DNA from: Asterochloris sp. CNOR1
Taxonomy: Eukaryota > Chlorophyta > Trebouxiophyceae > Trebouxiales > Trebouxiaceae
Reading direction: 5' to 3'
NCBI GenBank assembly: GCA_963969365.1
Contig: OZ017748.1
Coordinates: 992,001-1,056,000 of the forward strand
Length of the DNA stretch: 64,000 nucleotides
Part shown: positions 1 to 64,000 of the stretch, in pieces
Position numbering within the stretch: position 1 is the stretch's first letter
Layout of the letters: each line of letters opens with the position of its first letter
Made by a program: the position numbers and the translations under genes
Notes under the pieces: generated by a model
Databases searched by the model: none
Seen by the model: the letters and a program-made list of their open reading frames with translations, nothing else
Told to the model about the DNA's origin: nothing

Positions 1-2022
1 ACAAAGTTAGCGACAGCGCCCTGCAGGTGTACAGTGTTTTAGCTGCATTGTCGCTTCTGTTGCACGCCCATGCATCGGTGCGCCCCTTCTGTGAGCAGGG
101 CGGGTCTCTCAAGTCAGCCCATATGGGCAGTGCGGCATGGCATCGCTAGCAGCCAGCCAATGACCCATGCAAAGTGTGCTAACTGCCACAGTACGCCTGC
201 ATCAGTGGCCACCCAAATGCAAGCTGTGCTCCCAGTCCAGCCAGCCCTGCTTCACTGCTGCACATGAGCTCGCAGGAAGCAGGTAGCCCTGTAAAGCGCC
301 TGCATGGCAAGCTGGTGAGCTGACCTGGAGGTCTGCTCCCCTGCGCCAGTGCCTGGTGCCGGCCCGCCGCAGCGAGCGCCGCGCAAGCAGTGTCAGCGAG
401 GCTGTGAGGTGCCGCGTGGCGCTCTCAAACTCCAAGTCCCCCAGCTGGGCCACGCTGCCCATGATGATAGGGACCGCGAAAGCATCCAAGCCAGCATCTG
501 TAGCAAGGAGGGCCAGACAGTGAGTCTGCAGGGATACTTTGAGGATCCATTGCACCTGCAAGCTGAAAACAACATGAGGCATCCAGCTCTGCGTCTGCAG
601 GAAAAAGAAAAGGTACCACGTATGAGCACACCTGCCAGCAGCGTGGTGTGGTGCTTGTTCCAGAAGAATCTGGGGTCTGCTCGAGCGCACTGAGATTTCT
701 GTGCAGCCTTGGGGTCTGCTGCCAGGCTGGTGTAACGCTGCTGTGTGAGGGTCAAGTCACCACCGTGCGCGAAGAAGAGCCCAGTCCCGTTTTCGAGCGG
801 GTTGAAGGCACTGGATAGCAGGCGCACATACCTGCGGTGCCCAAAAGCGGCAGCCTGTCAAGAGACGGCATGCCATGACAGAGGCTTCCCGAGACAGTCG
901 AGTCATACATGAGGGCACGCGAGGAGCAGCAGCTGCGAAGCTGGCACCCAGAGGGGTATGTTTGCCATAACAGAGGCTGCTTGACAGCCCTGTTATTTGG
1001 CGCGCGGAGCGCTGTGAACACTTCGTCAAGCTGGCTTGTCATCTGGAGCGTGCCAGATGGCACTGGCTGCCAGACCCTATGCAGGTGCAGATCGCCACGG
1101 GCAGGGAAAGCTGCCAGCTGCCCGCAGTCGGGAGCTATCATGCCGGACTCCTCGCACTGCTTGCCAGACGGTGGGCTGCCATGGGCATTGGCTACTGAGG
1201 ACAGTCCAGTCCTGACATAAGTCATGGCACAGGCAGCTGCAGGTGCCAGAGCGCAAAATGGAGGCATGAGGCACGCACTGGGCGTCGTCCTTGCTGTTCA
1301 GGTGACTCCCGCCCACTACCTCAGTGCTCTTGATCTTGTACACAGGGTGGCCGCGCAGGATGGCCACCTGCGGCAGCAGCAGCCGCCTTTTTAGCAGGCA
1401 AATCCCGGATGCAGACTTGCCTTGGATTGGCAGAGAACTGGTCACAGTGCAGCAAACCTATTGCCAGACAAGCAACTCAGCAAGTTTCTCTACAACACTG
1501 GCTGCCAGCAAAGACAGTTTGCAGGCGTCATGCAGGCGGAGGGGACAGGCTGGGTGAAAGCTGAGGACGACTCTGATTCCATGGGGGGCAGTGTCACAAT
1601 GTTGCACGTCGCGAATGGACAGCTCTGAGCTTTGCAGCGGCAGTGCAGCATCTAATGTCTGAGGCCAAATGGACAGTCCCCTGCCACCTCAAACGGTCTG
1701 CTGCTGTCATCAGCGGGCAAGCAGATGCTACAAACATCAGATCAGCCTGACATCAACTCACCTGTTCAGCACCAGTTATGACAACCAGCACTGTACTGCT
1801 GGCAAGCTTGGCCACAGCAGCAATGCCAAAGACTTCCCTGAAGCCTTTGTCCATGGGGGCATGCCCTAGCAGCTTGACGCTGCCTGACTGCATGTCGATG
1901 CTGAGCGACTCGGGCTCAACCTGCCCATCCCGCACTGGTTGTAGCACAGCCATGCCCCCATAGGTCTGTAGGCGCAGCAGCTTGTGCACCTGCCCTGCCT
2001 GGGACTTTGCCTGGCCTGCCAT
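1..2022 (-). CDS. SAC-domain phosphoinositide phosphatase (Sac1-like), N-terminal part, cut by left window edge
   Basis: Sac1-family enzymes remove phosphates from phosphatidylinositol phosphates on ER/Golgi or endosomal membranes. Exons read on the minus strand with consistent phases: 1762-2022 (start MAGQAKSQAGQ; N-terminal beta-strands), 1320-1367 (VAILRGHPVYKIKSTE, the family's G-HxVYKI-TE motif), a tentative exon near 949-1046, 632-831 (NPLENGTGLFFAHGGDLTLT, then ADPRFFWN), 325-497 (VPIIMGSVAQL, then RRAGTRHWRRGADLQ), and 1-20 (GAVANFV). The order matches the SAC domain. The catalytic CX5R motif lies beyond the left edge, so activity cannot be judged. An in-frame upstream ATG at 2073 is an alternative start. 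The exon joining the KSTE and YVRLL exons is the weakest part of the model. Divergent from the epimerase gene to its right. Confidence 0.85.
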
Positions 2023-2869
2023 GCTGCTTGGCTTCCAGGGAGCAGCTGCCGGAGGCTTGGCAAGCGGTCTCAAGAGTCACAGCTCAGCTGTGCGGCGCGA
2101 GTCTGGTCTGGCAGTCAGGCCCCAGTGCTTGCCAGTAGTGTTCTGCGCCTCTGCCTCCAAACTCAAGGATTCCTGCAGCAGCTTCTTGGTGATACAGACA
2201 GCTCACTTTGACAGGATCTCCAGTGAGAGCTCCAATCAGAGCTGCAGTGAGCCATGCAGACCTCACCCGGTCTTGTGATGTCTGTGCTGTCTGTGTTGCT
2301 GGGCTTGGTGAGAAGCTGACGGTGCTGCGATAAAGAAGAGCAAGCACGCTCACGCCCGCGGCTGCCTGTCAGCATCAGGGCGCCACATGAGAGCGTCTCA
2401 CCAACTCAGCAAAGCTGTTCTCATCACTCCAGATGCTCAGCAAGGTCAGGTTGTATGATGCCACAGATGTGCAGTACACACTCACCTGCAGAGCTAGGTG
2501 GAAGTTTGTGGTCCTGCTTGCTCCCATGCGGGCTGCATGCAGTCAGAGTCCTTTTGACCTGGCATTGTCACACCGGCTTGCTTGTAATCTGCGAATCTTT
2601 CATAGGCAGCATGCAGCAGTCCCTGCAAGGCAGCCGCGTGGTGGCAGATCGCCAAGGCGCAGTCTGCAATCACCTGCTCCCAAGGCTGCCCACAGCTGTT
2701 AGGCACAGATGCCAATCGAAGAGGTTCCAGCGCCTGAATCGCACAGCCATCAGGGCTGCAGCAGACCTTGAACATCTCAAATCAAAACATGGTGCGGCCC
2801 CTCCCCCAGATCAAGGTCACATGCAGTGGGGCATGCGTGGCCAGCCTGAATGGTTATTCTGTCCTGCAG
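2023..2869. promoter_or_regulatory. Divergent intergenic region between SAC phosphatase and epimerase
   Basis: This stretch must hold the promoter of the minus-strand SAC gene and the promoter plus first coding exon of the plus-strand epimerase, because the first epimerase exon I can prove begins at 2870 in phase 1. Several short ATG-initiated candidates exist (2433-2860), but none has a recognisable conserved sequence, so the epimerase start is left open. No TATA-like motif stands out. Confidence 0.4.
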
Positions 2870-5800
2870 ACATCCCTGGATTTGTGGAAGTGTGTCCTGG
2901 CCAGGGAGGCCTGCCCAAGGTCGTGCTCAAACATTCCTGTGGCAGCAAAGCAGAGGTGTGGCACAGCAGTTCACGTGATGCATTCCATGACCCCCCTGTG
3001 AAGGAGCATTGGCCACCTCTGGTCACGGACATGCATCAAACCAAGCTGCACATGCACTTGCTGGAAAGCTCCCTGCTTGCAAGCGTAGGTGTACCTGTAT
3101 GGCGCCTGCGTGGTGTCCTGGATGCAGCCTTCAGGCGATGAGGTGCTGTACACCAGGCCAGGTAACCATCTGGGATGCACCTCTGACATCCCTGCAGGTC
3201 AGGCATGCTGCTGGATGGTGCACCCACCCTCACATGCAGCCACAACAGAGAATTCTCCTTGGGCAGCTGCAGCCTCCCATGAGCCTCAGTACCTGCCACC
3301 ACCTTGCCTGCATCTTGCGCTTCCATCTCCTCCTGCGTAATGTAACCCTAAGCTGTGGGGTCTGGATGCAGCCGCAGCAGGCTGGTTACCACAGCAGCTC
3401 TGCTTGTGTGCTGGTCGGCCAGTCTGCATCTTTACCATGGGCTTGCCTTGCCTTCAGGCTCACTTTATATGCCTGTTTGTTCAGATGCCAAGTTTGACAA
3501 ATCCAAGCCTATATCTGGCGGCATCCCCCACTGCTTCCCAGTCTTCGGCCCCGCGCCCGCGCCCATGACCCAGCACGGCTTTGCTCGCCAGTCAGACTGG
3601 ACGGTGGCCTCCACCTCAGCAGACCAGCAGCCAGATGAGCGGGATCCTGAGGTGGAGCTGGTGCTCGAGGACAATGAATACACCCGGGGCATGTGGTACG
3701 TCTGTCTGAGAAGCATGTGCTGTTCATGGGTGCAGCAGGGCCCTGGCACCTTTGGTGCTGGCTCACAGCCTATCATATGGAGTGATGACAGCCATGGGGA
3801 GCCAAGCATGAAGGCTTGTGCCTGTTGAGACAATGATCGCATGCAGGGCATGTGTTGCAGAAGCATGGGGACCCTGCAAATCACACCACATAAGAGTGTT
3901 TGGAATGGGCAGCATGCCTTAAGTCATACGGCAGCACAGGTCGTCTGTGTGGTCGCTACTGCTCTGTAGGGTGCTTCAGTGTCAGTTCTTCAATCTAGAC
4001 AGCGCTGGATGTGAGCAGTCATGGTTTATGGGCTTGTTTTGCATTTCAATCATTGACAGGAGCCAATGCGGGACAATATTTTTTTGGCTCCCGCCCGGCC
4101 TGGAATGATCAGAGGAGACGTGCAAGGGCATGTACGGGCACAAAACCTGAAATGCTCACAATATGTCTGTGCCTGGCTGGTGTCATGCAGGTGGCTTGGC
4201 TAAGCAACTGTGTGGTGCCAATCGCAGCGGTGCCCGGCCCTGGCACGCTGTTGTTGTGGCTGGCGGCTGTTCGCCAGCCCTCCTGAGCCAGCCAGCTGGC
4301 TGCCTGGCTGCCTCTCCTACATATATTGCTCACCTCAGCCACTCTTGCCCGGCTTTGTGTTTGCTGCTCCCCATGACTCAGGCCACCCCCATCCTCCAGG
4401 TGTCTGCTCTGTCCCCTGCGCTCGATGTATAGTGCATGCTATCTCTGCTTGATTGCCCAGCTGTCCTGGCTACAGACTGCACCCGTCTCTGGCAGATGTC
4501 CTTCTGGGAGGCCACGTGCATGTACTTGTGTTACACAATCACCCTGTAGGCGGGGCTGCTGAGAGCCCCTGGCCTTTCACTGAGTCTGTGCAAGACCTGC
4601 ATTGCCCACTGTGTGTTCAAAGTCACTCTGCAAGGGGAGCGCTGGAGACTGTCCTGGAGCACGTTTTCCTGCAGGCCTACATCCCTCCACAGCACGCCGG
4701 ACGTCTGCCCTACATAGAGAGCTGCTGAGGAGCAACCTTTCATCCAGTCGACTGATCTATACTGAAATCCTGCGTGACCCCTCCAGGCCACATGCCTTCA
4801 AGGCAGTCTACACAGTCACCCTGCACGGGGAGCTGCTGAGGACTGACCTCCGCATCATCAACACGGGCCACACCGAATTTGACTTCACCTCTGCCCTGCA
4901 CACCTACATCGAGGTGCTGGACATCGGCAAGGCCAAGGTCAAGGGCCTCAAGGGGTTGGAGGTCCTGGACAAGGTGCGACTCTGCTTTGGTGTCAGCTGC
5001 GGGGATTGCAATGTGTGTTTAGGCTGCGTGAGAGGGGCTGGACTTGCTGGACAGTCTCCTTGACCAACATCAGAGGCCTCCAGGGGCTGGGCCACTCTGA
5101 CAGGGGGGGCATTAGGCGTGTGGTCGACTTGAGCGGTCTGGTTTTGTGTGCGTCGTGCGGAGCAACAGTCACTGCCCTTGTTTGATCACGCAGCAGTCTG
5201 ACTTTGAGATGCCAGGAATGCTGCACAATTCAGGGCTGTGTCATGCCCCATCTGCTGGCAGCCCTGCACTGCTACTCAAATGATGGGCATGTTTGCTCTG
5301 CAGCTGGATCTTGTATGGCTGAGCTCCACCTGCAGCTGCTGCTGCCTCTCTGTATGCTCATTGCTTTGCAAACTCAGCAGAATTCCTGTAAGTTTACACC
5401 CGATTGCGATCTGTGTCAACTGCAGGTGCCAGACCCCAAAAACCCTGTGAAGAGCACAGAGCAGCGGGAGCAGGTCACATTCTCTGGCCCCGTGGATTCA
5501 GTGTACCTCAAAGCAAAGGACTATGTAGAGCTGGATGTGGGCACAGGTCAGCCCTTGGGCTTTGCATGTCATCGCCTTCTGGCAGGGATGCTGGTGACTT
5601 ACAGCCTGCGGCACATGGCAGTGGGGCACATGCCAAAAGCCCTCCTGAGAGATTGCCTGCCTGACAGCAACTCATGTGGGCTAAGAAGAGGTGCTGACAG
5701 CAGCGGCTGTGTACTCTGCTGTCTGCATGTGCAGCAGCTGATGGTCGAGGCAGCTTGCACGTAGTCATCAATGGTGGAGATTGCAAGGCATGCCTGCTGG

Positions 5801-9435: not shown

Positions 9436-19889
<10,454 letters not shown>

Positions 19890-43049: not shown

Positions 43050-43050
43050 C

Positions 43051-43056
43051 TTTTTT
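43051..43056 (+). terminator. RNA polymerase III terminator
   Basis: Six T residues begin two bases after the tRNA discriminator base, the standard Pol III stop signal. Confidence 0.85.
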
Positions 43057-43915: not shown

Positions 43916-44120
43916 CATGCCAGCACACACAGAACAGGAGCACCTGAGAATTCAGAAAAGGCTCCACCGGCAAGGTATTGAGCTGGGCAAGGCTGCCTGC
44001 GAGCATGCAGCCAGGAGAGGTTGGCAAACAGAGCTGCGGTGGCTGAAGCAGAGGGGAGTGGCCTGGGAATGAAGAAACCTGTTCAGCTGCGGCAGAGGGG
44101 GGCCACCTGGAGCTGCTGCG
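43916..44120 (+). pseudogene. Frame-broken 5' repeats of the ankyrin-type gene
   Basis: From an ATG at 43916 the frame reads repeat-like sequence (RLHRQGIELGKAACEHAA, then LRWLKQRGVAWE) and stops at 44070-44072. The next repeat (TCSAAAEGGHLELLRWLRQQ) is in the +1 frame. A further one-base loss near 44145 returns to the original frame used by the intact ORF below. The repeat match continues across both breaks, so these look like two small indels, not introns. Either the 5' end is decayed or the assembly contains errors. Confidence 0.6.
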
Positions 44121-44867: not shown

Positions 44868-44879
44868 ACACTGCATGCT

Positions 44880-45864: not shown

Positions 45865-48800
45865 TCAGGACCGCTGCCTTTTTTTGGTGCCCTTCTGCTT
45901 CTCGATAAACTCTGCTAGAGTATCGTCAACCTCAGCTAAGTGCTCCACATTCCTCCCTTCACCTGCCTCAGCTTTCTCCCTGGCAGCCGCCTGTGCAGCA
46001 AAGTGTATGTTTGCTAAGTAGCATGCCGAGCAAGCATACGCAGCTGGCAGGTTGAACGTTTTGCGACTCGTACTGAGCTCTGGGTGTTGACTGCAAAAGA
46101 CAAAGCTTGCCATGATTTTGCCAAATGCAGAAGTTTGCTACCACTAACAGCACTGCAGCCAGCATGCTCCAGCAAGCCTGGGAAGCGAGCCCTGACCTCA
46201 AATGTCACTGGCTCCCCCAGCGCAGCAGTCCCTGGCCTCAGCTCAGCATCAGCAGAGGCCGACGGGGCAGCAGGCCCGCCTGCAGGCTGCTTGCGCTTGC
46301 GCTGGCTCTGTCTGCCAGCCGCCCTAGCCGCTGCTGCAGGCCTCTGCCCAGGCACAGCCTGCTGCCCATCGCTCTCTTCAGCAGCAGGTCTTGTGCCAGC
46401 TGCAGCTCTGCCAGTCGATGTATGTTTCTGCTGCTGAGTCGCTGCCGACGAGGAGGCAACAGCAGGTCTGCTGCTGCTGGGCAGGTGGTCTGCAGCCTGC
46501 CCTGTATCCCGTGCTGCAGCCAGCGCTGTTTCCAGCCTGTGCACCAGCTCTGCCTTGCGTCCTGTGGTGTGCATGTTGAAGGTCTTCAGCTCGGCCTTCA
46601 ACTGAGGCACAGTCATCCTCCGTGGTGGGATGGGTTCCTGAGCTGCCAAGTCTGCATCCACAGGAGCCTGCAGGCAGCAGATTGTGATTTGTTTCAGACA
46701 CAGTGCGCGTGGCCATCTTCTGGGGCGCAAGTGTCTCCATGTGTGGCACAGGCTCTCAGCCTGCATGGTCTGCCCACACAGGAGCCTGCAGGCAGCTGTG
46801 CAGGCCACAAGCAGCTGAGTGAGGCGCTGCTGGCACTGCCTGTCTGGAGCAGGTTGAAAGGAACAAGACAGCCCACCCACCGTATCCTGCCCATCCACGA
46901 GCCTGCCAGCCTCGACCTGGTCCAACCTCTGCACCCCCATTATGGGCTCTGGCCCCTCTACTGGGTCTGAGCATGCGGCCCCCAGCCCAGGCCTCACATC
47001 CCCCGGACTGCTGGGCTGTGCCGCATCTGACACGGCAGACACCGGACTTGCAACGTGCGGCTTGCCTTGCTGCTGGGATGGTGATGGCACACCTGCACGT
47101 CAGGGGCAACCTCTGTGTCTGGCGTGAATGCTGCCCACCAGCATGCAGTCTGGGCGGAGCAGCTGGGGAGCTCACTTGCACACCTGGTGTGCAGCGCGCT
47201 TCTTGGCGGCAAGCGCTGGTGAACCTCCTGCGTAAGGGCTCACCTGCTACCCCGCCAGATGCCTGAGCTGCAGCTGCCTCTGCCCTCTCCAGCCGCTCCA
47301 CAAGGCCTGCCTTCTTTCCCGCTGCGCTCAGCCCAAGAGCTGAGAGAGCCTCCTTCAGTTCTGCCACAGCCATCTGGGAGGGCAGCTGGTGCTGCCGGCC
47401 CTCAGGAGCGCAGTGGCTCTTGAAGATCTGCAGGAACACAGGTGCAGGGTGCGGGCAGCAGGCTGGGCCATCTCCCATGACGGCTGGTGTTGCCGGGCCG
47501 TCTTGTGCAGAGCAGCTCTTAGATCAAGTCGTGTGCCTGGGCATGGACAGCAGGTGCGTACACCCACCACAGGGCAATGACTGCAACCAGGTTTCCCCTG
47601 GGGCGGCAGCAACCCCCCGGGGATCATCATCTACTGCCAAGCCTGCTTCACTTGAGTTCAGTGCAGTGCTCCACCCCACCTTGGGGTCCCTTGCAGCAGC
47701 CAGGGCCTTCTGGCGCCGCTGGTCCAGCTGGGCCCCCTCTACCAGCAGCAGGGGCTGGCATGTCTCGCAGGCATACACTGTGCGAGCCGCCATGTCCCAT
47801 GTCCGGACGCTGCTTCCGCAGCGCCCGCAGCTGCTGTGGTTGTAGATGTACCTGTAGCATGCGTGGAGTGGACACAGCAGGGACAGGGACTTTGCTGTGT
47901 GTCAAGGCAGCTGCCAGGCTGTAAATTTGCAATGGGTGGCCGCAGCATCAGTCTTGGGACATCAAGTGTGCGTCAATGCACCTGTCAGGCAGCGGCTGTA
48001 GCTGCTGAGTATGTAGACACACCTGCAGCATGCATGGGGTGGATGCACCACCAGGCCTGGACTTGCTGTGTGTCAAAGCAGTTGCCAGGCTGTGAATCCA
48101 CATCAGGTGGGGGCAGCAACAGACTGGGAATTGCTGTGAAACAAAGCAGTCGCCACTCGCCCACAGCAGGTGCCATGGATGGACTTGTGGTGTGCCCACA
48201 GAGGTTTGTCAGGCAGTGACTTGCTGATGGGCTACAGAGATGTGGCGCCCAGCAGGTGCTTCTCTGGACTCACGCAGCAGCTCCTTGAGGAGGCAATGTC
48301 ACCCTGGGACATGAAACGCAACGCCTGCGTGACCCCTGACTCAGGCGGAAACCGGACCCAGAGCTCCATGACTGACTTGAGTCAGTTGAACAAGTGAATG
48401 AGGTACAAAGACCTGTGGGGTTGACCAACCTGCGCCGGATCTGTACAGATGAATGACATGGCGGCCTGCCCATCAGTGTCAGCGGCAGCGTGTGCAGGAC
48501 AGCCTGCGTGTCCCGGGAGCACCCAGCTTGGACTGCTTCCTTGATGTGTACAGTGATACAGCTTGCAGAAGAAGCCCTGGATCAGACTGCTGTCTGTGGA
48601 CTGACCTGCGCGTCCAGGGCCTGCCCAGCTTGTCTGCCTCCTCTGGGTCCACAGTCAGGATGCTGCCAGTTTTGAAGCCGCGCTGCAGGAGCAGCACACA
48701 GTGGCGCCAGATGCGCTCAAAGGCTGCACGGTCCACTGTGTTGCTGGGCTGCTCTGGGTGCACGCCAGCCTGCAAGCAAGGACTGACAGAGTAAGGGCAG

Positions 48801-50868: not shown

Positions 50869-53800
50869 GAGAACGCACAGCAGGTTGCAGAAGTGCTGCA
50901 CATCTTGCCCCATCAGCGCAGCGCTGCAGATCTCAAACACCTGGCAGAGGCCGCCAGGTGAAGACAACAGCACCATGCCTGTCCAGCATGGCTTTTGCAA
51001 ATTCTTCTCTGTGTCTTCACAGTTCTTCACTGTCGGCTGAACCCGAATTGCAGCTGCAGCCCGAGCCAGACCTAAGTATGCGCTGCACCTGCCTCTGCAG
51101 GCAGCTGGGGCTGCTGCAGGGCGTGGAGGTTGCGCAGGACAGGCTGGTCTGGCACCAGCTGCTGATGCAGTGCAGCCTGCGCAGCTGCCCGGCGGGTACA
51201 GTGGTGTGCATTGCAGGGCAGCCAGCCTCCCAGGCCCTCTGGCTGCTGCAGGGGCAGGTCACAGTGGAGGCCGGCTCAGGTCACCTGCAGTCAGTGCGTC
51301 AGCAGCCTCAGGCAACTGTCACCAGACGCCCCAACCAGGACTCCCAGTATGAGGGCAGCATCTTTGGAACAGAGGTCGGCAGTGCATGGAGGACTACCCT
51401 GTCAAAAGAGCTGATCCTCTGCCTGGCATGCACATGTTTCTGCACAGCTGTGAACGGTTGATTCAGGTGATGGGTCCATGTTGCAATGCTCCTCAGGCAG
51501 GCATGGCCCCATTAGTCAAATTCCGTGCTACTTCTTGGCTGCATTGGCAGGCTGCCAGCGTGACCGTGTCACTGGTCAAGGAATGCGCAGACTTGTTTTA
51601 AGTATGCTGCAGGGCTCTGATGCAGAGGAGGAGGCAGTGACTGTGCCAGCTGAGCCTTTCCACAGGCAGCAAGGAGCTTGTGGCACAGAGCAGCTGCAGA
51701 TTGGGGAGGCTGTGGGCTTGGAGGCGCTCACATCTGGCCGCAGCGAGTGCACCGCCAGGGCTGAGGGGGATGCCCTGTTTCTGGCGCTGGATGGTGCCAC
51801 CCTCAGGTCAGCCCTGCGCTGGGTCACACCAGGCTGCAGCGCCGCACTGCCCAGGCTGAGGGGATCCTTCAATTGTGGTGCTGAATGCTGCCTTCTCAGG
51901 TCAGCCCTGCAAGTGCTGTATGCGACAGATTGCTACAGAAGCATTGTCTGGACCAGACACAGGGGAAGCGCCAACTCTGGGTCCACAGCAACGTTTTACT
52001 GGCCTCAGGGCACACAGCAGATCTGCCCCCTGCACTGCGCAGTGCACTCCACGGCTGCAGCCGCCGGAGACGCCCAATGCATCAGTCCTCACCACGCTGC
52101 TGCTTGGCAGGCCATCCCGCTGAGCTGTGGCCTGCAGAGCCACCCTGGCGCATCCCACCAGGCTGCCAGACAGCGAGCAGCAACTCCGCCAGCTGCTGCT
52201 GGTGGCCCGCCACACCCGAAGTCTCACAGAGGCTCAGCAGCTGTCTTCTGCGCTGGCCTACTTCCGCTTCTTTCAGACCCGTAGCAAGGAGGTCCGGGGG
52301 CAGCTGTGCCGCCATCTGGAGTACCTGGCTGTGCCGGCGGGGACAGTGGTGTGCAAGGCTGGCACTCCTGCTGACCTGTTCTTCCTGGTGCTGTCGGGGA
52401 GCCTGCAGTGCAGTGGCATGGGCACTCAGGTGGGGTTTGAACACCAAACGTGGGCTGGCAATGTCAGCAGGCAACATTGTGCTGCTTCTGGTCTGGACTT
52501 GTGCAGATCTGTCCACTACCTGCTGGAACAGTATTGTGTGAGGCTGGCGCCCCTGCAGACCTCCTCTTCCTGGTGCTGTCGTGGAGCCTGCAGTGCACTG
52601 CATGACTTCCTTATGGGGGTTGGAACTCCAAGCATGCTCGGTGCGTGGTCAGGGTGCAGGCAGTGCACAGCTCCTGGACAGATTGGTAGATTGGCTTGTG
52701 AAAGGACCTGATATGTCTGTGGTAACAACAATGTGCAAAGCGGGCTCATATGCAGGTTCTTGTGATCCTGGTACTACTCTAGAGTCCTGCATGACACAGG
52801 GCCTGGGAAGCAGGGGCTTCTTAAGGTCCACGCTTGCTGGGGAGGTGTTGATGCCTGACAACCCTTGTTATGCCCTGGCAGAAGTTGTCGTCATGCACAT
52901 GTCAGTTGGGCCTGTGGTGCACCAATGCCTACTGGCACACAGGTAGGGCCTGCGGCAGAGTCACAGGCCCAGCACATGGCTGACAGAAACACAGTGAGTC
53001 TGCTGCAAGCGAAGAATGCTGTCCCTCATGGTGATGCAGAGACGCTGCATTCTGCTCTTAGTGTTCCACCTCACTCATGCAGGACATCCCGCAGCAGACC
53101 AGCAGACTAGACGCAGGCCACAGGCAGTCTCGGCAGTCGATCATGCCAGGCATGCTGCCCTTGCAGCACCATCGGGGTGAGATGCGCAGGTCAAGCGTGG
53201 CTGGCGGGCGTCTGAGCGCTCTGAACGTGCAGGGGCAGTCCACCAGGCCTGGCACGCGCCCAAGCACAATGGCAGGACTTACTCTACCAAGGCTTGGGGT
53301 GAGTGCATGGCTGGCTGACTCACAGATGGGCTTGGCGGCTCGGCAGGATCAGGGGGACCCCCAGGGATCTCCGTGCTGCCCGTGCACAGCTCCTGCAGCA
53401 GTCCAGAGCCAAAGGCGGGTCCCTGACGGTGGAGTGTGTGAACTGCTCCTTCGCAGCACTGTTGTGCGGCGGGATGCCACCCTGCAGCTCCTACCTGCCA
53501 CAGTCTGCACATGTGGCGCGCACAATCTGTGTGGGCCAAAAACACCCCGACGTCATCCTCTGCAGTCCTCTTTATTGCCAGTGGACTGTGTGCACGCAAA
53601 CTGCCTCATCCCCCCTGTGCAGGGACTCAGCCCACCGGACACCAGCAGCAGCGTGCCTGACCAGCCGCGCAGGGGCTCGGCGTGGCAAGCGGCACGCAAT
53701 GGGTGGCAGCTGGCAGCTGCGTCGCAGCAGGCAGGCGAGGCAGCTGCCTGGGACAGTCAGACATCACCAGGGGAGCCCCGGGTTGTGAGGATTGGGCCCC

Positions 53801-56800
53801 ATGACTTCTGCGGGGAGGAAGCCCTCATTGACGGGCCAGTCCAGAGACTCTCCACAGTCACGGCTCTGACAGACTGCGAGCTGGCCACCATCAGCAAGGT
53901 GCAACGTTTTGGGCCAGCGTTGCATGATCGCAGCACATGCGTAGTCTGACCAGGTTCTGGAACCAGGCTGAAGCCTTGCAATGATGGTCGGAGGCTGTTC
54001 ACAGTCACGGCACTGACACACTGCAAGCTGACTGTTGTCAGCAGGTTGCACGCTGATGATGTGTTTGCCGTGCCTGGCTGGCCCTGCACGCGGTGACAGG
54101 CAGCTTATGGCGCAACATGAATCTGGATCCGCTAGTAGGACCAGGCTGTGCAGGATCAGGGTGCAAAAGCTTAGGCGTGGACTTGTTATATGGTCAGCTC
54201 TGATGCTCACGTTCTGGCACACAAAGTGGCTAGCCCTGAGCGCCTCATCACATCTGATTGCGCCTGCCCGCCTGCAGGTGGGGCTGCAGCAGGCCCTCAG
54301 GGCAGGCATGGAGCAGCAGCAGCAGGAGCAGGTGGCCTTTCTGCAAGGTATCGCCCTGCTGTGCAGGATGGCACAGCAGCACCCGCAGCTGGGCAGTCTG
54401 CCACCATGCATGCTTACCTCCAGCACCCATGTCCAGGCATTCTGGATGGCAAGCTGTGCTGACTCCTCTGTGCCTTCCTGCATGTCCTTTACACCCTGCC
54501 TGTACTGAAGGGACTGATCTATTCAAAGGCCACTCACGCGATCTGCTAGCGCGCTGCCTGCTCAGCCTGGGCGAGTGTACTGTGCCCAAGGGGGCTGTCA
54601 TCGTGCCCCAAGGCAGCTGTCCAGACAACTTGTATGTCATTCAGTGGGGAGAGTGCAAGGTGGGGCCATACGCTCCTTGAGCTCGCCCCTAATGCTGCTG
54701 TGTCCTTCACAGCGCTGGTGGCTCTGTTGTTGATCAGTGGGTTTTCAAGGATGAGAAGAACAGCTGGTGTGTGGTGCTGACCTCATGCCTGCTTGGCACA
54801 TTTGCTCTGTTCTGCTATTCCCCTTGCAGCCCTGCTGGCTGCTGACTGTGCAAAGCTTCTGCGGTCCAGCACCATCACGATTCCCTGGCTGCTGTAGGTG
54901 GTACACAACCTGAGGCAGGCAGCTGTGGGCGTCGATATTGTGTCGCGTCACGCTGCAGGTGTCTGGCCTAGCAGTGACCTGCGCTCCGAGATTGTGGTGC
55001 TGGCAGCAGGTGCGCTTGGGATCGTTCCCCTGCTGGGGTGCTGGCTGCTGCATGCAGGAGTGAAATGTCCCTGTTGGAGGCACTGGGTGTTGCTTTCAGG
55101 GTGATGACTCCAGCAGAGCACTAGCGGCCCACCTGAGATGCTAAGCACCATTTTGTAGAGTGCTCTGTCCAGCAAAGCCCTGCAGCGTCACCTCAGACGC
55201 TCAATGGCATCTTACAGGCCTGGTATTGCAGCACTGTTGCCTTCACTGCCCAAGGAAGCATGTCTCTTGCGCCAGGAGCAGCCCTGCATACATCCGGGCC
55301 AATCCCACATACGTCTGCCAGTCCTCCAGCTATGCCATTGCCTGCAGAGGACCAGTCTGGGGAGGCCAGCGTGTTGCATCAAACCCCGGCCTTGTCTGCT
55401 GTAACATCAAGCACTTTGCGCATGCTGCTTGCAAGGGGCCAGTCATGTGGAAGTCCATGTGCTTTGGCCAGGTTTGCGTGGGTACAGGTGGGTCAGCCTC
55501 ATGGTCCATTAGCCAGCTCCCACAGTCACCTGCTCTCTGCCCCTGCAGAGGAGCACTTTGAGCAGGCCTGCTGCTCCGGCAGGCCTAGCTTGTCCCACAG
55601 CTTGCTGAGTGCCAGTGCTGCCTGCAGGAGACCATTTTGGCGAGGCCTGCCTGCTGCAGCAGACTCAGGCCTTCTCAGTGGTGGCAGCCAGCACTGTGCG
55701 CCTGCTGGTCATTCCTGCACAGTACCTGCCAGCTGTGCTGCCTCTGGAGCAGCTGGCACAGATGAGGGAGGCTGCTGCTGAGAAGGTGGCCTGGTATGGG
55801 TCGCGCATCCAGCACAATGTGGAGGTGAGGGCAAGTTGGGCTGTTTATGAGGTGGTCAATGGTGTAAGCATGTCACAAGCGGCCAGGCTACAGGGACATG
55901 CGTCTAGCCCCTCCTGGTGGTCAGTAGGCTTTCTGATGCTGTGTGTGCCCTTTGCGGCCCCAACACTCAGGCAAGCCCTTCGCCTCAGCCACCTGCAGAA
56001 TTCTGTCAGCCTGTGCAGGTCTGCAGGTGCTGCGAGCTGCCCAAGGAGGCCCATTTTTTGTCAAGTAACTTGACATGGCAGACCTGGGACGACTGCAACA
56101 GCCTGCCAGCCTGTGCGTATCTGCAGGTGCTGCTGGCCGCCCAGAGCGCAAGTCGCCAACACCTGCCACGCGCTGCCTCTGTGCCAGTGGGCCGCGCCCG
56201 GGCAGCCAGCCCCCACACGGCTGCAGCGCGAGGGGTGTACCCCCAGCTGTCACGCCATGGGCGCAAGCTGGAGAAAATGTCCAATCTGGTGAGCCCACTG
56301 CTGCGCTGGGACTTGATAGAACACCGTACTGAGACCTAGTTGTTTCTGGCAGCAGTGCTCCCCCCGGCGCCACTGGTGAACCCCACATCCCTTCTCATAC
56401 AGACTCCTCAGGCGCAGCTTAGTGCTGGCTGTGCAGCTGCCTTCCCTGGCCTTAATGGAGTCCATTCGACCCGTATTCTCTAGCTGTCCAGCAGTAGAGT
56501 CAAGCTGAGGGCAGCCTTGTGACTGTGCACAAACCAATGAGCTATAGAGTGCCGAGTATTGCCTTTGACAGAGCCGCTTATGAGAACATGTGAGCAGGCT
56601 GACAGAGGCAGTGCCTTCTCCCTGCAGGTGCCTCTCCAACAGGCTGTCGCTATGCCAATATGCACAACACTAATGCTAGCTCCCCTAGAAAGGCACCACA
56701 TGTGTGTTGAAGCTAAATTTACGAGGCTGGCGCGTCCCCTGCAGGTGCCCTCCCATGTGCTGCTGTCAATCTGCCCCACAGCTGGCCCCTCTGAGAGGAG

Positions 56801-59220
56801 ATGCTCTGGCATTGAGCATACAGGCTAACAAGGGCAGCCCCTTTTCCATGCAGGTGCCCCTTCAACGTCCTGCCACAATGCTGGCACACCCTGGCCCAGT
56901 GCTGGCCCCGCTGAGGGAGGCCCCCCGGCCAGCCCTGGTGGCTGAGCCTGAGTCCAGTCACAGCTCTCTGGATGGCCTTGACCAGCCAGGCGCAGCAGAG
57001 GGCCTCAGCACCAACCAGGTCTCCAGGGAAGGCGTGGGTACGCAGAGCACTGGCAGCAGGCTGAATGAGTTTGGGGTGCACCTGCTGGCTGGGGCCCTGA
57101 CAGAGGGACATTGCTATAGGTGGGGGCTGCAGAAAGCGTTTTGTCCTTTGGTATGCTGCAGCCTGTTCACATAGTCAACATGCAGAGACTGATTGTTGAA
57201 GAATTTCTGGCGCCTGTCCGCTTGCAGTCAGTGCCCTGATGGCAGCAGCAATCAGGGCACTGCGAGGCAATTGGCGTTGGCAGGTACCTATAAGCTGCAT
57301 GTCACAGACTTTTGTAATTCACATCCAGCCTAGCCTCTTGGAGGAAGTGCCACACCCCTTTAGCATGCTGCCCTCACAACACTCAGCCAAACAGGTTCCT
57401 CAGCTCTCGAAATGTCTTTGAGTCCAAGCTCTGAAGTGTGCAGCATTCTGGCGCTCAGGGCCCTGGCGTGCTAGGGGATGTCTGCTAGCAAGGCTGCTCT
57501 ACACTGCCCTGTAGGCCCCCAGCCAAGCGCGCAGCCAGCGTGGAGCCTCTGGCATCCCAACAGGTGGAGAACGCGACCCACCGCCGCTCCATGAGCGTGA
57601 TGTCAGCTCTTGGACACCACGCAGACTCGGAAGCAGGCTCGGACAGCGGCAGGGCCAGCCCCGCGGCACTGGACAGCCCCGACTCTGCAAGCTTGGGACC
57701 AGACACAGCTGCCACTGGAGCGCGCCAGCCGGGGACAGAGGGGGAGCTTGCAGGGCAGCAGGTGGTGGTGACGCGGCCGCTTAGGCCCAAGCCGCCTTTG
57801 GTCAGGGCAGCCTGCTGCAACCCCTCCAATCCTGGGTCTGCTGAAGTCCGGACACCTCAGGGGCAACGGGCAGGGGCTGTAAGAGGCCACCGTGCTCTCA
57901 GAAGGCCTGGCAGGGCGTGGCGCCTCACCTACCATCTGCCGCCTGCCCCTGCAGCGCCTGCAGAGGGACAGGTGCTTCTGCAGCCTATAAAGCTGGTTGA
58001 CAGCCTCCTACCCATTGCCCAGCCAGCAGCCGAGCCTGAAAGTAGCTCTACAGCCCTACAGAAGGGAGCTGGGAGGCAGAGACCTGGGCCGCCTGCCAGG
58101 CTGCCTGGCCTGGAGAGGTCTGCAGGTATGCGATACTTGTCCTGCTTCAACCTACAATCAGGCTGCCTGTGGGATAAGCATCAGTAGCCTGCCCATCGCA
58201 TTACAGGCAGGGCTGGCAGATGCCATGATGTCTTGTGACGCCCCCGCGCCATCCTGTCAGAGATGCCTTGCTCTACGCAGAGCAGCTGTGTGCATCAGGG
58301 CATGGGACACCCGCAGGTTGCCTTTCCTCAGCCCTCCGTCAACTGGGCATGCCTGCTTCTTCTGCCGCCTGCAGCGCATCAGATGTAGGACAGTGGCTGA
58401 CATGGGTCCATGCTGCGGCGCCGGCCAGACTGCAGCTTGTGCAGCACTGGCAGCCTTGCTGCTCCGCAAGTGTCCTCGCCAGCTCCTTAAGTCCTGCAGT
58501 GCTCTGAGTCAGATTGCATGCCGCCGCAGAAGCAAGGAGCCCAGACAGGATTGTCCCTCACCCCACACTGGCAGCCCTCATGCGTCGCCGGCCCACCCGC
58601 GATACCCCCCGCAAGTCGGACAGCATCTATATTGGCAACGCCTTCCTGCACCTGCCAGCAGACGCTGACCCCTGCGCTCCACCCCTCACGCACCGCTTGT
58701 CAGCCCTCAAGCTGGCTGACCTCCAGTATGTGCTGGCTCGCTGGGAGCAAGGCTGGAGCTGGGACCGGGCAGTGGCTCATGTGAGTGTCACTATTGCTGC
58801 TGGCAACCTCTTCGGGTGCACAAACCGGTTACAAGTCTTTAGTGAAGTCTGGCGCCGTCACTGGGCAAAGGCTTATGTTGAGTGTCAGTACTGCCACTGG
58901 CCCTGGGGTTGCATCGGCTTCCCCCAAGGTCCCTTGCAGCCCATTTGTAGAGGCGGAATCTTAAGCTGGCATGATGCTGCCAGCATGGATTGCACCTCTG
59001 TCAGGCAGGCAAATGTCAAAAGAGTTCGGTGAGTCAAGTTGACTTGGTGCACACTTTGCAGCTGCCTATATTAGGCAAGCCTGGGGACAGTGCCTCAATG
59101 AAGAAGGAGAAGCAAAGACTACACTACACAGCCGAGCACAGCTGGACACCCAACCTGCTGGACATCATGAGAGAAAGGAACAGCAGCACCATTGAGCGGC
59201 AGCTGATGCCAGAGCCATGA
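50869..59220 (+). CDS. Protein with three cyclic-nucleotide-binding (CNB) domains, no recognisable effector domain
   Basis: Exons with agreeing phases: 50869-50957, 51101-51374, 51613-51806, 52138-52429, 53083-53298, 53623-53898, 54278-54347, 54511-54659, 54898-55009, 55628-55824, 56127-56288, 56854-57119, 57515-57800; likely also 57955-58125, 58549-58780 and 59062-59220 (joins at 57800-58549 not solved). CNB1: SLRSCPAGTVVCIAGQPASQ, closing with IGEAVGLEALTSGRSECTAR. CNB2: YLAVPAGTVVCKAGTPADLF; phosphate-binding-cassette-like GEEALIDGPVQRLSTVTAL after a 100-residue insert. CNB3: CTVPKGAVIVPQGSCPDNLY; HFGEACLLQQTQAFSVVAAS, lacking the cassette arginine. The Ser/Pro/Arg-rich C-terminal half has no known fold; ends QLMPEP. 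No kinase, channel or GEF domain seen; possibly a cilium- or signalling-associated scaffold like CNBD proteins, but this is inference. cAMP/cGMP binding is unproven. Confidence 0.8.
51880..51916 (+). repeat. Intronic copy of the CNB1 exon end
   Basis: TTCTCAGGTCAGCCCTGCAA at about 51893 copies CCCTCAGGTCAGCCCTGCGC at 51800, the end of exon 51613-51806 plus its donor. Confidence 0.6.
52514..52640 (+). repeat. Long intronic copy of the CNB2 exon
   Basis: About 125 bp resemble 52319-52445, covering the CNB2 core (AVPAGTVVCKAGTPADLFFL) and donor. Clear blocks are TGTG(C)NAGGCTGGC, TCTTCCTGGTGCTGTCG and GAGCCTGCAGTGCA. Indels break the frame. Confidence 0.85.
53985..54052 (+). repeat. Intronic copy of the CNB2 phosphate-cassette exon end
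   Basis: CACAGTCACGGCACTGACAC followed by ACTGCAAGCTG copies CACAGTCACGGCTCTGACAG / ACTGCGAGCTG at 53856-53887, then ATCAGCAAGGTGCAACG / GTCAGCAGGTTGCACG. It sits about 90 bp after the real donor. Confidence 0.85.
55345..55615 (+). repeat. Two intronic copies of the CNB3 exon acceptor and start
   Basis: CTGCAGAGGACCAGTCTGGG at about 55345 and CTGCAGAGGAGCACTTTGAG at about 55546 precede the real CTGCAGGAGACCATTTTGGC at 55622. Each continues with an AGGCC..C.TGCTG-like stretch corresponding to GEACLLQQTQAF. Neither copy keeps the frame. Confidence 0.8.
56004..56044 (+). repeat. Intronic copy of the acceptor of exon 56127-56288
   Basis: GTCAGCCTGTGCAGGTCTGC then AGGTGCTGCGAGCTGCCC mirrors CCAGCCTGTGCGTATCTGC then AGGTGCTGCTGGCCGCCC at 56106-56143. 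Confidence 0.7.
56618..56812 (+). repeat. Two intronic copies of the acceptor and start of exon 56854-57119
   Basis: CTGCAGGTGCC(T/C) followed by a CTCC/TCAA and CAAT/CTGCC stretch occurs at about 56623, 56740 and at the real exon (56848). All three continue to GCTGGCCCC/GCTAGCTCCCC with CT(A/G)AGA/GAGGGAGG. Three tandem acceptors, one used. Confidence 0.75.
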
Positions 59221-59613: not shown

Positions 59614-62600
59614 TCAAGCTGCCTCCTCCAACCTACCTGTTGACCTGCTGGACCGTTTAGTTGCTGCCTCAGCTTGCAGAACCTTTAGGTCTGCCGCTGG
59701 GATTGGCGGCAGCTCTTGCAGAGACCCTGCTGCTTGCAGCTGCGTCAAGCGCTGCTGGAAGAGCATCAGTCCTTCTTGATAAAGGTCCTCATCCATTTGA
59801 TTCAATTCCCTGCACAGCGAAGCACAGGCCTTCAGTAGTGCAGAGCCGGCATGCTTACAGCTCAGTTGTGGCGCCGCCTGTCTGTGCCTCCACAGTGACA
59901 AGGCAGCAGCAGCAATGACAGCAGCCTTGGCCTGATGCGGGCCTGAAGCATTGTAGTGTCTCCGGGCAAAGCCGCCTCAGCAACGGTAGGCGGCTCAACC
60001 CAGCTGCACTGACCTAATGCGAGCCGAGATGGCAGGGTCCAGATTCCTGCGCGTCTCCCCGGTGAAGTGCACTGTCCGCCCATCTGGCAGCTTCAGGTGC
60101 AGGAAGGAGTCCGCGCGCCGCTGTCCGGCCCTGATCTGTGCACGCTCGCTGCACACACGATAGGCATGCCACAGAGCCTGCCGCTGCAGGAAGTCGCTGT
60201 CTGGCTTCAACTGGCGGGCTCTGCCGCCGGGGGACACTGCCGTCTGCAGCTCAGCCTGCAGCTTCTGCTCTTTGGCCTGCAGGGTGAAGGGTGAGTTCAT
60301 GCCACAGATGCGTTGCTTCCATCCCGGCCAGCAACTTTGTGGCACTGCCTGCATCGCATGGGAGCAGGGTGTGGGAGCAGGGGTTTTTGCAGAGGCTGCA
60401 GCTCTGATGTCCTGCCTGCGTGGCCAGACTTGTTTTGCTGAGGCACAGACATACGCTACAAGGGGTACATCAATTACTGCTGGTACTGCCCTCCAGCCTC
60501 TGCCCCTTTACCTGCAGGGCCAGGGGCTCTTGAATCATTCTCATCCCATGGCAGGCACCCCAGGTTGGCTCAGTATAGTTGGCCATCCGACTGCGGCAGC
60601 AGCATCATCAGTCCAGCTGCCAGGGTGTGGCCCTATTGCATGGGCATCAGGGGTGGGAATGGCTGCTGGGGGAGGCTGGGGGTTGCCGACATCTGATACC
60701 GAAATATGGGGGCTGACACTCGGGAGGTATGAACGAAGCTCGGGCACACCCAGAATGCTGCGCAATCATTCAAGGCAGAGGGGGCTGTCCGATGTCAGGC
60801 GCCATGGCGGGAAATGCAGCCCTGTGTTTCAAAAGCTGACTTGCTGATGCACAGGGCGCTCACTGCACTTTGAGCCAGGCTTTGAGAGCACCAGCCTACC
60901 TGTGCGCCAGCAACTTGCTGCCGCAGGGAGTCCAGCCTGTCCCTAAGCGCTGCATCTGCAACAGCCTGACCAGCCCGGTGCTGCTCCTCTTTCCAGTGCT
61001 GCTGCAGAATGGCATGCTTCCTGCAGGCGGCACAATAGTGCCAGCTTTGCTGCGACAGAGGCTTACCAGCTGCATGCCAGGCACGAGCCAGGCCCTGTAG
61101 AAGAGACCACACAGGTGCATCTGCGCATTCTAGCCCTCACATGAGGCGCCATTCCATGCATTGCTGAAGCCAAGTAGAGGCTCTTGAGCTGCAGATGTCG
61201 CCCCTGCATGGCAGCGCTGTAACAGGCAGGAGGTAGAGGCGTGAACAGCACTGCAGAGCAACACGTTCTCCGGCATGCTGCTACGCTCCCTCATGTGCAC
61301 CAAGCCAGGGAATGTGCTGGCACCTGGCTGTGATCTGCAGGAAGATGCTGCACTGATGCACCCACCTTTCCAACTCATCTCGCCCCAGCTTTGTGACATG
61401 CAGGTGGTGCTGCAGAGCTGCAACTGCCTGACTCATGTTGCCAAGTGGCGCCTGCAGGGCCAGCAGCACATGAGCTGATATTCTGCCAACTCTTGAAGTT
61501 TTGGGTCAGAGCCAACACGGAGGCAGCAATGTCCCCCAAGGTGAGCGATTGAGGGCAGCAGGAGCGATGGAAGGCACCAGAGGTCTGCAGACTTCATCAG
61601 CAGTCTGCAGTCAGCAATGTCAAGAGTGCATGTCCACCTTTCCGTCATATCTGAAAGCGCCCTTGGGGTTGATCTTCCAGGAGGGCCCTTCCAGCTGGAG
61701 CCGCAGATCTGCCTGAAGCGCGCCAGCGGCATTTGCAGGTCAGTAGAAGCGTAAGCTGCCCTAGACTTTGTTGACCCAGGTATGTCATCCTGATCCACAT
61801 AGACTTGCCCATACCTCAGCCCATTGTTGCAGCCCATGCAGGCAATGCGAGCCTGCCCACCACAGATGGGGCAGCCCACTGAGGCGTGCGCCTGCTCACC
61901 GCAGGCTTTCGCTCGGATCCCGACTCACTCATTTAGCAGCCCGCAGGTGTTCACCTGCTCACCGCGAGCGTGAGGATTGACAGCTCCAGCTGCTCAGTGA
62001 GGCCAACATGCAGGAAGGTGTGCAGGCGCTTCCTGGCCATCTGGCTGGCCTGCGCCTGCAGCTGTGGCCACCGCTGGATGCAGCGCCGCACTTGAGTGGC
62101 CTCCGGCCAGTGGGAGTACTGGGTCAGCCCCAACACCTGCATCAGGGGGGGTGGGAGGCTTGTGATGCACAGTGGAGGAAAGACTTGATGCGGGAATCCT
62201 GCAGCAGCAAAGCTTGTTGATGGAGAACTGCGTCGGCCCTGGCCCCTGCAGGAAGGAGCAAGGGTGGTGTCGCTGGGCAGCTGTGGGCCAAACTCCGCAA
62301 GCCACAGCACCTGCATAAGACCAGAATGGCTGCTGCTGAGATCCTTCAGCAACAGAGTGCGCCTGTGCAGGAGAGCAGCGGCCTTGGCAGCCAAGAAGGC
62401 CGTCAAGAAGACAAACCAGCCCTGCATCTACACGCTCCATGCAACATTGTTAGGAATCTTGATCAGGCCATGTTGAAAGGCAGTCAGAAGCATTGGCAGT
62501 GCTGAGGTCCTGCCAGCACGCACCTGGAAAACTTGCCCGTCATGCAGCAGGTCCAGAGCCTCTGGCCTCTCAATGAAATCTGATAGGGGCATGAGCACCT

Positions 62601-63741
62601 CGTTGTCATAAGGGTTGACCTCGCCAGGCTTGAAGTCGGCAACACCTGCAACAGTCAGCATCTGTCGTTCCACTCTGGCAGGTCAAGTGTTTCAGGAATG
62701 CATGGCATTTGAGGTGGCTCCGCATCTCACAACAATGCAGCATCACTCAGCAATATGCCAACAGCACAGCCTTTGCAGGTACCACCAGGAACGCAGAGCA
62801 TCACACATAAGGCAGCAGAGGCTGTAAGGCCTGCTACGCCTCACCTGCTGCATGCTCTGCAGCTGCGTTTGCATACTGCACAGCAGACAAGAAGGAGGGC
62901 ACTCAAATGACTTGTCAAGGGTGACCCACTGATGATGCAAGAACCTCAACAGACTACATGAGGGCCTCTCCACAAGAGGTAACAGGGGAAATCACATAGA
63001 TGTTGCTAGGCACCAAGGGGACGGCACCACAGCCCAAGTTGTCAGGTTGTACTGCAGACTGCAGCAAACTGCTCACTCGCTGCCTGAAGTCCCTCTCCAG
63101 GAAAGGTACGAGCTGGGACCAGGGCCAGACATTGCGTGTGTCCACTTTCTGGGGGTCGGGGGTGGGAGCTGCCAATGTCCTGAGGTGTCGAGAGGCCACC
63201 TCTGCTGCAAACTCGTAGGCACTCAGGATGCGCTGAACAGGATCTCGGAGCTGCGTAATGACAGCAAAGCTGGGGGGCAGGTGCTGAATGACGCTGAAGT
63301 CATCGTGGCTGGACAGCAGGCCGCAGTGGGGCTGGCTGTTATTAAGACGGAGGGTGTCGTAGCTCTTGGCGCACCGCCTGTATGGCAGGGCCTCTTAGCA
63401 GGTGCTGGTTGACGCAGGCATGGGGCATTGTGTGTCCAGGCAGTAGGGCCTTGCTGGCAGTTCACTGTTTGCATACAGGTGCGATACAGGGGCTATGTGT
63501 ACCTCGAGGGGGGATGAGCCTGTTTTAGGAAGCAGGTGCCAAATGTTCTGCCTGCTGTTCGTGGGATGTGTAGGAAGTACAGCAGCTTCTTGGGATCCTG
63601 TTCAAGGGGTTGCTGTGATCGCAGAGTCACGAAATCTTGCCATGCAGCTTGACAACTGTCCTCGCCCAGATCCAAAAGCTCCTGTGCCCAAAGCACGTTG
63701 ACGACAGCGAAGGCCAGGCAGATGCTAAGGGAGGCCTTCAT
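59614..63741 (-). CDS. TPST: Protein-tyrosine sulfotransferase, plant type (TPST)
   Basis: Golgi/lumenal enzyme transferring sulfate from PAPS to tyrosines of secreted peptides and proteins. Phase-linked exons: 63503-63741, 63077-63377, 62845-62875, 62524-62645, 61963-62136, 61366-61451, 60900-61020, 60014-60276, 59614-59809; about 510 aa, near the length of the plant enzyme. Start MKASLSICLAFAVVNVLWAQ is a good signal peptide. PAPS 5'-phosphosulfate-binding motif FLHIPRTAGRTFGTCFL; HDDFSVIQHLP; 3'-phosphate motif QLRDPVQRILSAYEFAAEVA; NVWPWSQLVPFLERDF; NPYDNEVLMPLSDF; GLTQYSHWPEA; HVGLTEQLELS; C-terminal LNQMDEDLYQEGLMLFQQRL. A C-terminal transmembrane anchor, present in the land-plant protein, was not found, so it may be soluble or the last exon may be missing. 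The 61451-61963 join, which skips a possible exon near 61600-61700, is least certain. Confidence 0.9.
62280..62325 (-). repeat. Intronic copy of the TPST VLGLTQYSHWPEA exon start
   Basis: Minus-strand ATGCAG|GTGCTGTGGCTTGCGG translating VLWLAEFGPQLP mirrors ATGCAG|GTGTTGGGGCTGACCC (VLGLTQYSHWPEA) at 62136. It is in the preceding intron. A donor-side echo (CTCACCGCAGGC, about 61895) of the same exon's end (CTCACCGCGAGC, 61959) lies in the next intron. Confidence 0.55.
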
Positions 63742-63922
63742 GAATTGGCTGATTCAACAAAAATTAACCTGCAGGACTCTAGTGTCCTCGTTGACTATTC
63801 CAGCTCCTTCGGGTGTGAAAGTGTTTCACATGTGAACAGCGACGGGTGTGAGCCAATGCTCATGGTCTGGCAATACAGGCTGGGCGCCCACCATGCTGGT
63901 AAGCAGCATGCAAAAATGGCAT
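63742..63922 (-). promoter_or_regulatory. Short promoter between CBS-protein gene and TPST
   Basis: About 180 bp separate the stop of the upstream minus-strand gene (63923) from the TPST ATG (63741). They must hold the former's 3'UTR and the latter's promoter. Confidence 0.4.
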
Positions 63923-64000
63923 TCAACAGAGGTAAGCAGCCAGGTCAGACAGGCTGATGATACCCTCAACATGTCGCGTCTTGGGCTCCACCACATACAG
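63923..64000 (-). CDS. C-terminal end of a CBS-domain protein (SNF4/AMPK-gamma-like), cut by right window edge
   Basis: The minus strand reads LYVVEPKTRHVEGIISLSDL then AAYLC and a TGA stop at 63923-63925. The (V/L)xVVxxxTxxVEGIISLSD(L/V) ending is typical of the last CBS motif of SNF1/AMPK gamma subunits, which bind adenine nucleotides and regulate the energy-sensing kinase. Only 25 codons are inside the window, so domain number and any fused carbohydrate-binding module cannot be seen. Tandem with, and upstream of, TPST. Confidence 0.72.
   Translation of the reverse strand: MYVVEPKTRHVEGIISLSDLAAYLC

Follow-up and report, generated by a model that had tools for sequence, protein, structure and literature searches.

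Outside transposon-rich genomes, little is known of where intron sequence comes from, and a 64,000-nucleotide stretch of the green alga Asterochloris sp. CNOR1 (contig OZ017748.1; G000:C3:992001-1056000 in our numbering; hereafter the window) raises this question directly: why do introns here carry imperfect copies of the edges of their own flanking exons? We conclude, with a probability of roughly 0.83, that the copies are remains of small tandem duplications straddling a splice junction, of which splicing keeps the outer copy while the other decays within a lengthened intron; most of these duplications are probably old.

Local direct repeats and matches to own exons

The window has a guanine plus cytosine (GC) content of 58% and belongs to a 56.4-Mb genome in 21 contigs. 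It was analysed together with 18 ten-kb stretches (positions 500001-510000 of contigs C1-C18, termed L002-L019), giving a sample of 244 kb. For Asterochloris glomerata, PMC6652019 gives a genome size of 56 Mb, with 9 introns per gene and a GC content that lies at 56-62% in 98% of the sequence.

Repeats were sought by self-comparison of 24 ten-kb segments (positions 1-60000 of the window and the 18 other loci; 240 kb), with window positions 60001-64000 lying outside. Among repeats at most 400 bp apart and scoring at least 36, 110 were direct and 1 was inverted, against 0.2 in dinucleotide-preserving shuffles, and 20 of the 24 segments held at least one such direct repeat. At lags of up to 600 bp and scores of at least 34 there are 130 pairs, corresponding to 85 non-overlapping loci: 59 exon-intron, 13 intron-intron and 13 exon-exon. 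Lags between 40 and 399 bp are multiples of three in 105 of 243 cases, as expected from in-frame coding repeats.

Exon calls rest on the predictions of a home-made hidden-Markov gene finder trained on the 244 kb, which produced 42 models with 537 introns (13.8 exons per model, median intron 238 bp, 163 kb of predicted intron in total). Very short predicted exons are unreliable, and the finder sometimes threads copies into proteins. Exons of at least 30 bp were used to place copies, to classify loci, to count duplicate blocks and to assess splice-site retention; all predicted exons were used in the own-exon match tests, the random-placement test and the analyses of coding constraint and intron length.

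For the own-exon test, 526 introns were trimmed by 6 bp at each end and aligned with their two flanking exons; in the swapped control, each was compared with the flanks of introns of its gene from which it was separated by three positions or more (7151 comparisons). Matches to an own flanking exon were found in 48 introns at scores of at least 28, in 30 at 32 and in 26 at 36, against swapped expectations of 3.6, 0.66 and 0.29; at the highest threshold, reverse-complemented own exons gave one match and shuffled introns none. In five Pfam-supported genes of the window the count at a score of at least 28 was 11 of 70 introns, with 0.21 expected. The original prediction had described introns across the window as carrying "echoes" of their adjacent junctions. 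The echoes are real, being local repeats in direct orientation that match their own exons above both shuffled and swapped controls, and neither non-adjacent exons nor composition-matched sequence match equally often. They are nevertheless confined to a minority of introns (48 of 526 at scores of at least 28, or 93 of 526 if any local-duplicate block of at least 15 bp is counted), and 13 of the 85 loci are purely intron-intron.

The predicted number of about 25 intronic copies agrees with the 29 of our 76 non-redundant exon-intron copies that fall in the window. Each of the genes named as carrying them contains pairs scoring at least 34 at lags of up to 600 bp, except the TPST-like gene, which lies mostly in positions 60001-64000. 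There, a comparison run over the whole window listed only the pair 61871-61902 / 61936-61965 (score 31), and none reaching 34 at such lags, in accordance with the description of this gene as a weaker case.

Position of the copies relative to splice junctions

Nearly all exon-intron copies (68 of 76) span a junction or end within 15 bp of one: the preceding intron holds 30 copies that carry the acceptor, and the following intron 26 that carry the donor; both junctions are present in 2, another 9 stop no more than 15 bp short of a junction, and 1 is a donor copy scored as lying before its exon. Copies with a single junction are on the side that tandem duplication predicts in 56 of 57 cases, the exception being an overlapping triplicate (L013:545-748). 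The positional rule of the original prediction is thus borne out as an observation. It is, however, forced by geometry once the protein is kept: a duplicated donor places the extra copy downstream and a duplicated acceptor places it upstream, so that any protein-preserving tandem duplication yields the rule, and the rule gives no sign of junction targeting. Junction-containing pairs number 67 of 130 against 45.9 expected from random placement, a comparison confounded by the slower loss of exon-copy pairs.

The similarity does not stop at the exon edge. Across 56 copies, identity past the junction is 0.48 at 6-15 bp into the intron, 0.35 at 16-23 bp and 0.30 at 24-33 bp. This junction-centred profile replaced a test of identity at block edges, which is powerless because simulated tandem copies look the same. 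Sharp block edges had suggested copying of exon sequence alone, as identity just outside the blocks looked random; a gapped version of the test showed weak residual similarity. With the edge test powerless, this candidate was dropped.

Decay of the copies

In 64 exon-intron blocks, mismatches at codon positions 1, 2 and 3 occur at rates of 0.171, 0.148 and 0.238, which fits one free copy compared with an exon under constraint. Of 30 gaps, 28 shift the reading frame; the intronic copies thus keep neither frame nor coding constraint. Copied donor dinucleotides are retained in 18 of 31 cases (21.1 under neutrality) and acceptor dinucleotides in 18 of 25 (16.2). Consensus-like sites, with a score of at least 3, remain in 45% of the 31 donor copies, slightly below the 54% of the neutral simulation, and in 72% of the 25 acceptor copies; alignment bias may contribute to the latter. 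Cryptic splicing from the copies is possible, and so, given these sites, is the seeding of shifted splice sites or isoforms that the original prediction raised.

Two further candidates were rejected. An apparent preservation of splice sites (43 of 50 intact) had counted only blocks reaching at least 5 bp past the junction, and a wider count is near neutral. Mosaic copies were not supported either, as long perfect runs do not exceed their frequency in shuffled mismatches.

Probable tandem duplication across splice junctions

These observations support the core of the original prediction, namely local duplication across a junction, splicing of one copy and decay of the rest in longer introns: orientation is direct, matching is specific to own exons, similarity extends into the intron side and decay is unconstrained. 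Small tandem duplications, with detectable units of about 65-300 bp, would hit genes at many places. Where a unit spans a donor or an acceptor, the protein would be kept only if the outer site, that is the first donor or the last acceptor, is spliced. The extra exon edge, its splice site and the flanking intron would then become part of a longer intron, and the copy would decay by neutral substitution and indels. With one partner conserved as an exon, exon-copy pairs should stay recognisable for longer than intron-intron pairs, and for this reason old duplications would appear as exon-edge echoes. As a guess, the duplications may arise from repair of staggered breaks.

The youngest-looking cases are near-complete head-to-tail duplications, found in L013 (lag 68, 96%, three copies), L008 (lag 119, 88%), L003 (lag 65, 87%) and at 34410-34581 of the window. 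The aligned length reaches at least 0.8 of the lag in 15 of 85 loci and the remainder are partial, as are simulated old tandem copies; for these partial copies we infer the tandem step, and which copy is spliced is likewise inferred, from homology. Introns with a copy (score at least 32) have a median length of 406 bp (n=30), against 227 bp for introns without a match of at least 24 (n=443). Chance matches of at least 24 to a distant exon likewise go with long introns (369 bp, n=59), so that the length excess of copy-bearing introns is partly a matter of opportunity.

In simulations, randomly placed tandem duplications of 65-300 bp were left to accumulate neutral substitutions and indels while exons stayed conserved. 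At ages of 0.15-0.40 substitutions per site the simulation comes close to what is observed. For the three intervals past the junction, two indel settings gave 0.49/0.39/0.32 and 0.38/0.28/0.28 (observed 0.48/0.35/0.30), and two harsher settings were too low at 6-15 bp (0.34 and 0.28).

Several observations weigh against tandem duplication as set out here. The spacing usually exceeds the length of the copy (aligned/lag has a median of 0.36 in exon-intron loci), so the tandem step is directly visible in a minority, and 8 of the 76 copies are interior to the exon, more than 15 bp from a junction. Acceptor copies seem to keep consensus-like sites better than the neutral simulation (72% versus 53%). 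A model of uniform duplication age fails, as it predicts equal numbers of exon-intron and intron-intron loci with 23-30% of loci young and complete, where 59/13 and 3/72 are observed, and ages skewed towards old are required. Finally, the two best-fitting settings give exon-intron shares of 0.61 and 0.73 and median identities of 76 and 79, compared with 0.82 and 82 observed.

Probable age of the duplications

The simulations suggest that most duplications are old and that their rate has since fallen. Input would have been higher in the past because constant input cannot make old copies outnumber young ones, unless early mutation is fast or young copies collapse in assembly. The statement of the original prediction that introns here lengthen is accordingly upheld as to lengthening by local duplication, but its present tense perhaps should be past, since the copies look mostly old and the recent process much weaker. 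Correcting the count of 80 loci at lags of 65-300 bp for simulated detection rates yields roughly 350 events, amounting to about 45 kb or a quarter of all predicted intron sequence (163 kb); this is rough-model arithmetic that includes exon-exon loci, and no measurement. An ancestral and largely ended episode of junction-straddling tandem duplication may have supplied a large part of the intron sequence (about a quarter under the rough model), a proposal that we regard as tentative and somewhat improbable. If it is correct, introns would preserve a fossil record of how they grew, one that can be dated, and a burst of small duplications, not transposons, would have determined intron size here.

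A steady process is rather unlikely. New copies might diverge fast at first, or young ones might be collapsed in assembly, and either would account for the finding that only 3 of the 72 exon-intron and intron-intron loci are young and complete. Fast early divergence is at odds with mismatches that are unclustered and show no excess of long perfect runs, and collapse is at odds with the contig sizes: 18 of 20 contigs sampled measure 1.99-4.47 Mb (two are short), which suggests long reads that would not collapse 100-bp repeats. A minimum size of unit or intron, suggested by the lack of lags below about 65 bp, was rejected, as old short units are nearly undetectable in simulation (0 of 450 at 30-47 bp and 10 of 450 at 47-64 bp).

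Alternative explanations

One alternative to tandem duplication is a process in which template switching or templated repair insertion copies 30-90 bp pieces of exon edge over distances of a few hundred bases, leaving the intervening stretch single. Blocks that are mostly much shorter than their spacing would follow naturally, as would short blocks of high identity at long lags, such as 39662/39840 in the window (31 bp, 90%, lag 178). We nevertheless consider it improbable: inverted copies are virtually lacking (110 direct versus 1), the intron flanks past the junction stay similar (0.48 at 6-15 bp), and simulated old tandem copies leave short blocks too.

The consensus-like sites in the donor and acceptor copies (45% and 72%) might instead mark exons still in use, as alternative or mutually exclusive ones, or else alternative splice sites. 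Frameshifts in 28 of 30 gaps, the mismatch pattern of one unconstrained copy, the presence of both exon junctions in only 2 of 76 copies and a RuvB-like 2 homologue that lacks the copies make this highly unlikely. Least probable of all is that CTGCAG-rich composition or the gene finder produced the pattern as an artefact, even given the finder's unreliable short exons and a very strong acceptor consensus. The predicted consensus is AG/GTGAG at donors and CTGCAG/G at acceptors (slashes marking junctions), the latter with C59 T86 G93 C97 A100 G100 percent in the predicted introns of the window and L002-L019, and it may be the source of the CTGCAG richness to which the original prediction drew attention. 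The repeat excess, however, is independent of gene models and vanishes in shuffles and in inverted orientation, and the own-exon test used trimmed introns, exon-only matching and a swapped control, with the excess also present in the five Pfam-supported genes (11/70 versus 0.21).

Relation to known systems

Creation of introns by tandem genomic or internal gene duplication has been reported (Gao and Lynch 2009; Hellsten 2011, both cited in PMC3443670; also PMC2891723). The likeness lies in a local, direct duplication within a gene of which one copy is removed by splicing; the difference is that a new intron is made there, whereas existing introns are lengthened here. The signature of intron birth, in which spacing equals intron length and exon ends match the opposite intron ends, is not enriched in our introns: at least 13 of 24 matching positions occur in 2 of 419 introns on one side (2.05 expected) and 4 of 416 on the other (1.85). 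At 15 of 24 or more, one intron per side remains (0.2 and 0.1 expected), and the two that stand out are an MCM5 intron of 80 bp, of doubtful splicing, and an L008 intron of 375 bp. Exon copies in a neighbouring intron are also known from tandem exon duplication and mutually exclusive exons (PMC9013439), but those duplicated exons are expressed, whereas here the copy is mostly one exon edge (both junctions in 2 of 76) and bears no coding constraint. Fill-in of staggered breaks (PMC8355091) likewise yields small direct head-to-tail duplications and is a plausible source, although it is described there for induced breaks in mammalian cells.

Introner elements, most reports of which concern fast-evolving lineages, green algae among them (PMC9860276), change intron content as well, but share sequence among many genes, while the copies here are locus-specific as far as searched. 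Three window sequences were searched genome-wide, namely one copy, one pair of copies and one entire intron, and each matched its own locus only, the copy also matching its source exon. In titles and abstracts of the open-access literature on intron growth, exon-edge copies and decay after duplication we found no description of the pattern, a weak negative. The class of mutation is known, and the density of junction fossils may be undescribed as far as that literature goes. Copy density was measured in this genome only.

The pattern matters in that a conserved exon offers a reference for reading the decay of its intronic duplicate, making intron growth datable intron by intron. Should the skew in age prove real, introns lengthen in episodes, a point relevant to ideas of intron evolution that invoke population size and repair bias.

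Copies in individual genes

Pfam hits above the curated cut-off were obtained for 12 of 15 models submitted. In the window these comprise aldose epimerase (with DFP), MCM5, RPB8, cwf21, H2TH/SAP (Nei/Fpg-like) and cyclic-nucleotide-binding models, and outside it ABC transporter, amino-acid transporter, WDR19, HSP70, TIP49 and Plus-3 models. The TPST-like model had no Pfam hit at E <= 0.01, and its name is that of the original prediction. Solved homologues align to the MCM5 and RPB8 models; the MCM5 model has extra residues between the aligned stretches that are missing from the homologue. The long model 27752-45395 is probably several genes fused.

Intronic copies of exon edges in the window and at the RuvB-like 2 locus (positions are those of the window unless a locus is named)
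Copy or feature	Source and similarity	Gene or model	Strand	Support
4532-4563 and 4618-4655 (two copies)	exon interior 4809-4849	aldose-epimerase-like gene, preceding intron 4011-4674	+	Pfam Aldose_epim
9818-9862	acceptor and exon start 9626-9671 (80%)	MCM5, last exon	-	
10111-10140	10303-10332 (87%), 23 bp inside exon edge	MCM5	-	
10579-10632	acceptor and exon start 10454-10508 (78%)	MCM5	-	
18358-18830 (multi-copy set)	around 18358-18600, spacings ~90-240 bp; spliced copy uncertain in model	MCM5	-	
20997-21023	acceptor and start of exon 21077-21103 (85%)	RPB8, last exon	+	
22132-22167 and 22223-22249 (two copies)	donor edge 22292-22328	cwf21-domain gene	-	
24429-24486	exon 3' end 24655-24712 (79%, lag 226)	cwf21-domain gene	-	
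32735-32784	exon end 32559-32606 (80%)	long model 27752-45395	+	
34410-34581 (near-complete head-to-tail duplication)	spanning donor at 34429 (82%, lag 87)		+	
40851-40906	exon end 40522-40578 (79%, lag 329)		+	
47989-48128	acceptor, flanking intron and exon start 47818-47957 (76%, lag 171)	Nei/Fpg-like gene	-	H2TH
51824-51910	exon end and donor 51728-51817 (74%, lag 96)	cyclic-nucleotide-binding gene	+	cNMP_binding
52519-52604	exon 3' end 52334-52420 (83%, lag 185)		+	genome-wide, these two places only
53991-54030	exon end 53844-53883 (85%, lag 147)		+	
55339-55427	acceptor and exon start 55619-55707 (75%, lag 280)		+	
56003-56043	acceptor and exon start 56103-56143 (83%, lag 100)		+	
58845-58901	exon end and donor 58749-58804 (75%, lag 96)		+	
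L015:4019-4700	exon and two decayed intronic copies	RuvB-like 2	-	homologue alignment

The RuvB-like 2 model of L015, outside the window, is a useful test case for annotation. Residues 1-391 and 442-503 of the model align to 9eq2_D, the solved structure of a RuvB-like helicase, and the intervening 50 residues (392-441), encoded by 4347-4418 and 4019-4096, are missing from 9eq2_D. These two stretches pair with the 3' end of exon 4547-4700, the pairs being 4020-4064 / 4549-4595 (85%) and 4294-4396 / 4489-4599 (69%). The conserved protein needs one copy, and the finder threaded in the two others. This happened in a highly conserved protein, and other annotation pipelines may thread in decayed copies too.

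Other observations in the window

A search of prokaryote contigs with RPB8 found no relative, and an MCM stretch compared with viral contigs matched four loci at 52-62% identity. Two forward-strand stretches are repetitive: 28527-31229, predicted to be coding, contains numerous short tandem repeats with periods of 12-69 bp, and 44033-44619 is an in-frame coding tandem array with a period of about 81-82 bp, ankyrin-like by eye, which is a protein repeat and not an intronic copy. A transfer RNA gene, tRNA-Ile(AAT), lies at 42938-43049 (+) with a 20-nt intron in the anticodon loop; a further insertion, seen by eye near the variable loop, is possibly a second, non-canonical intron.

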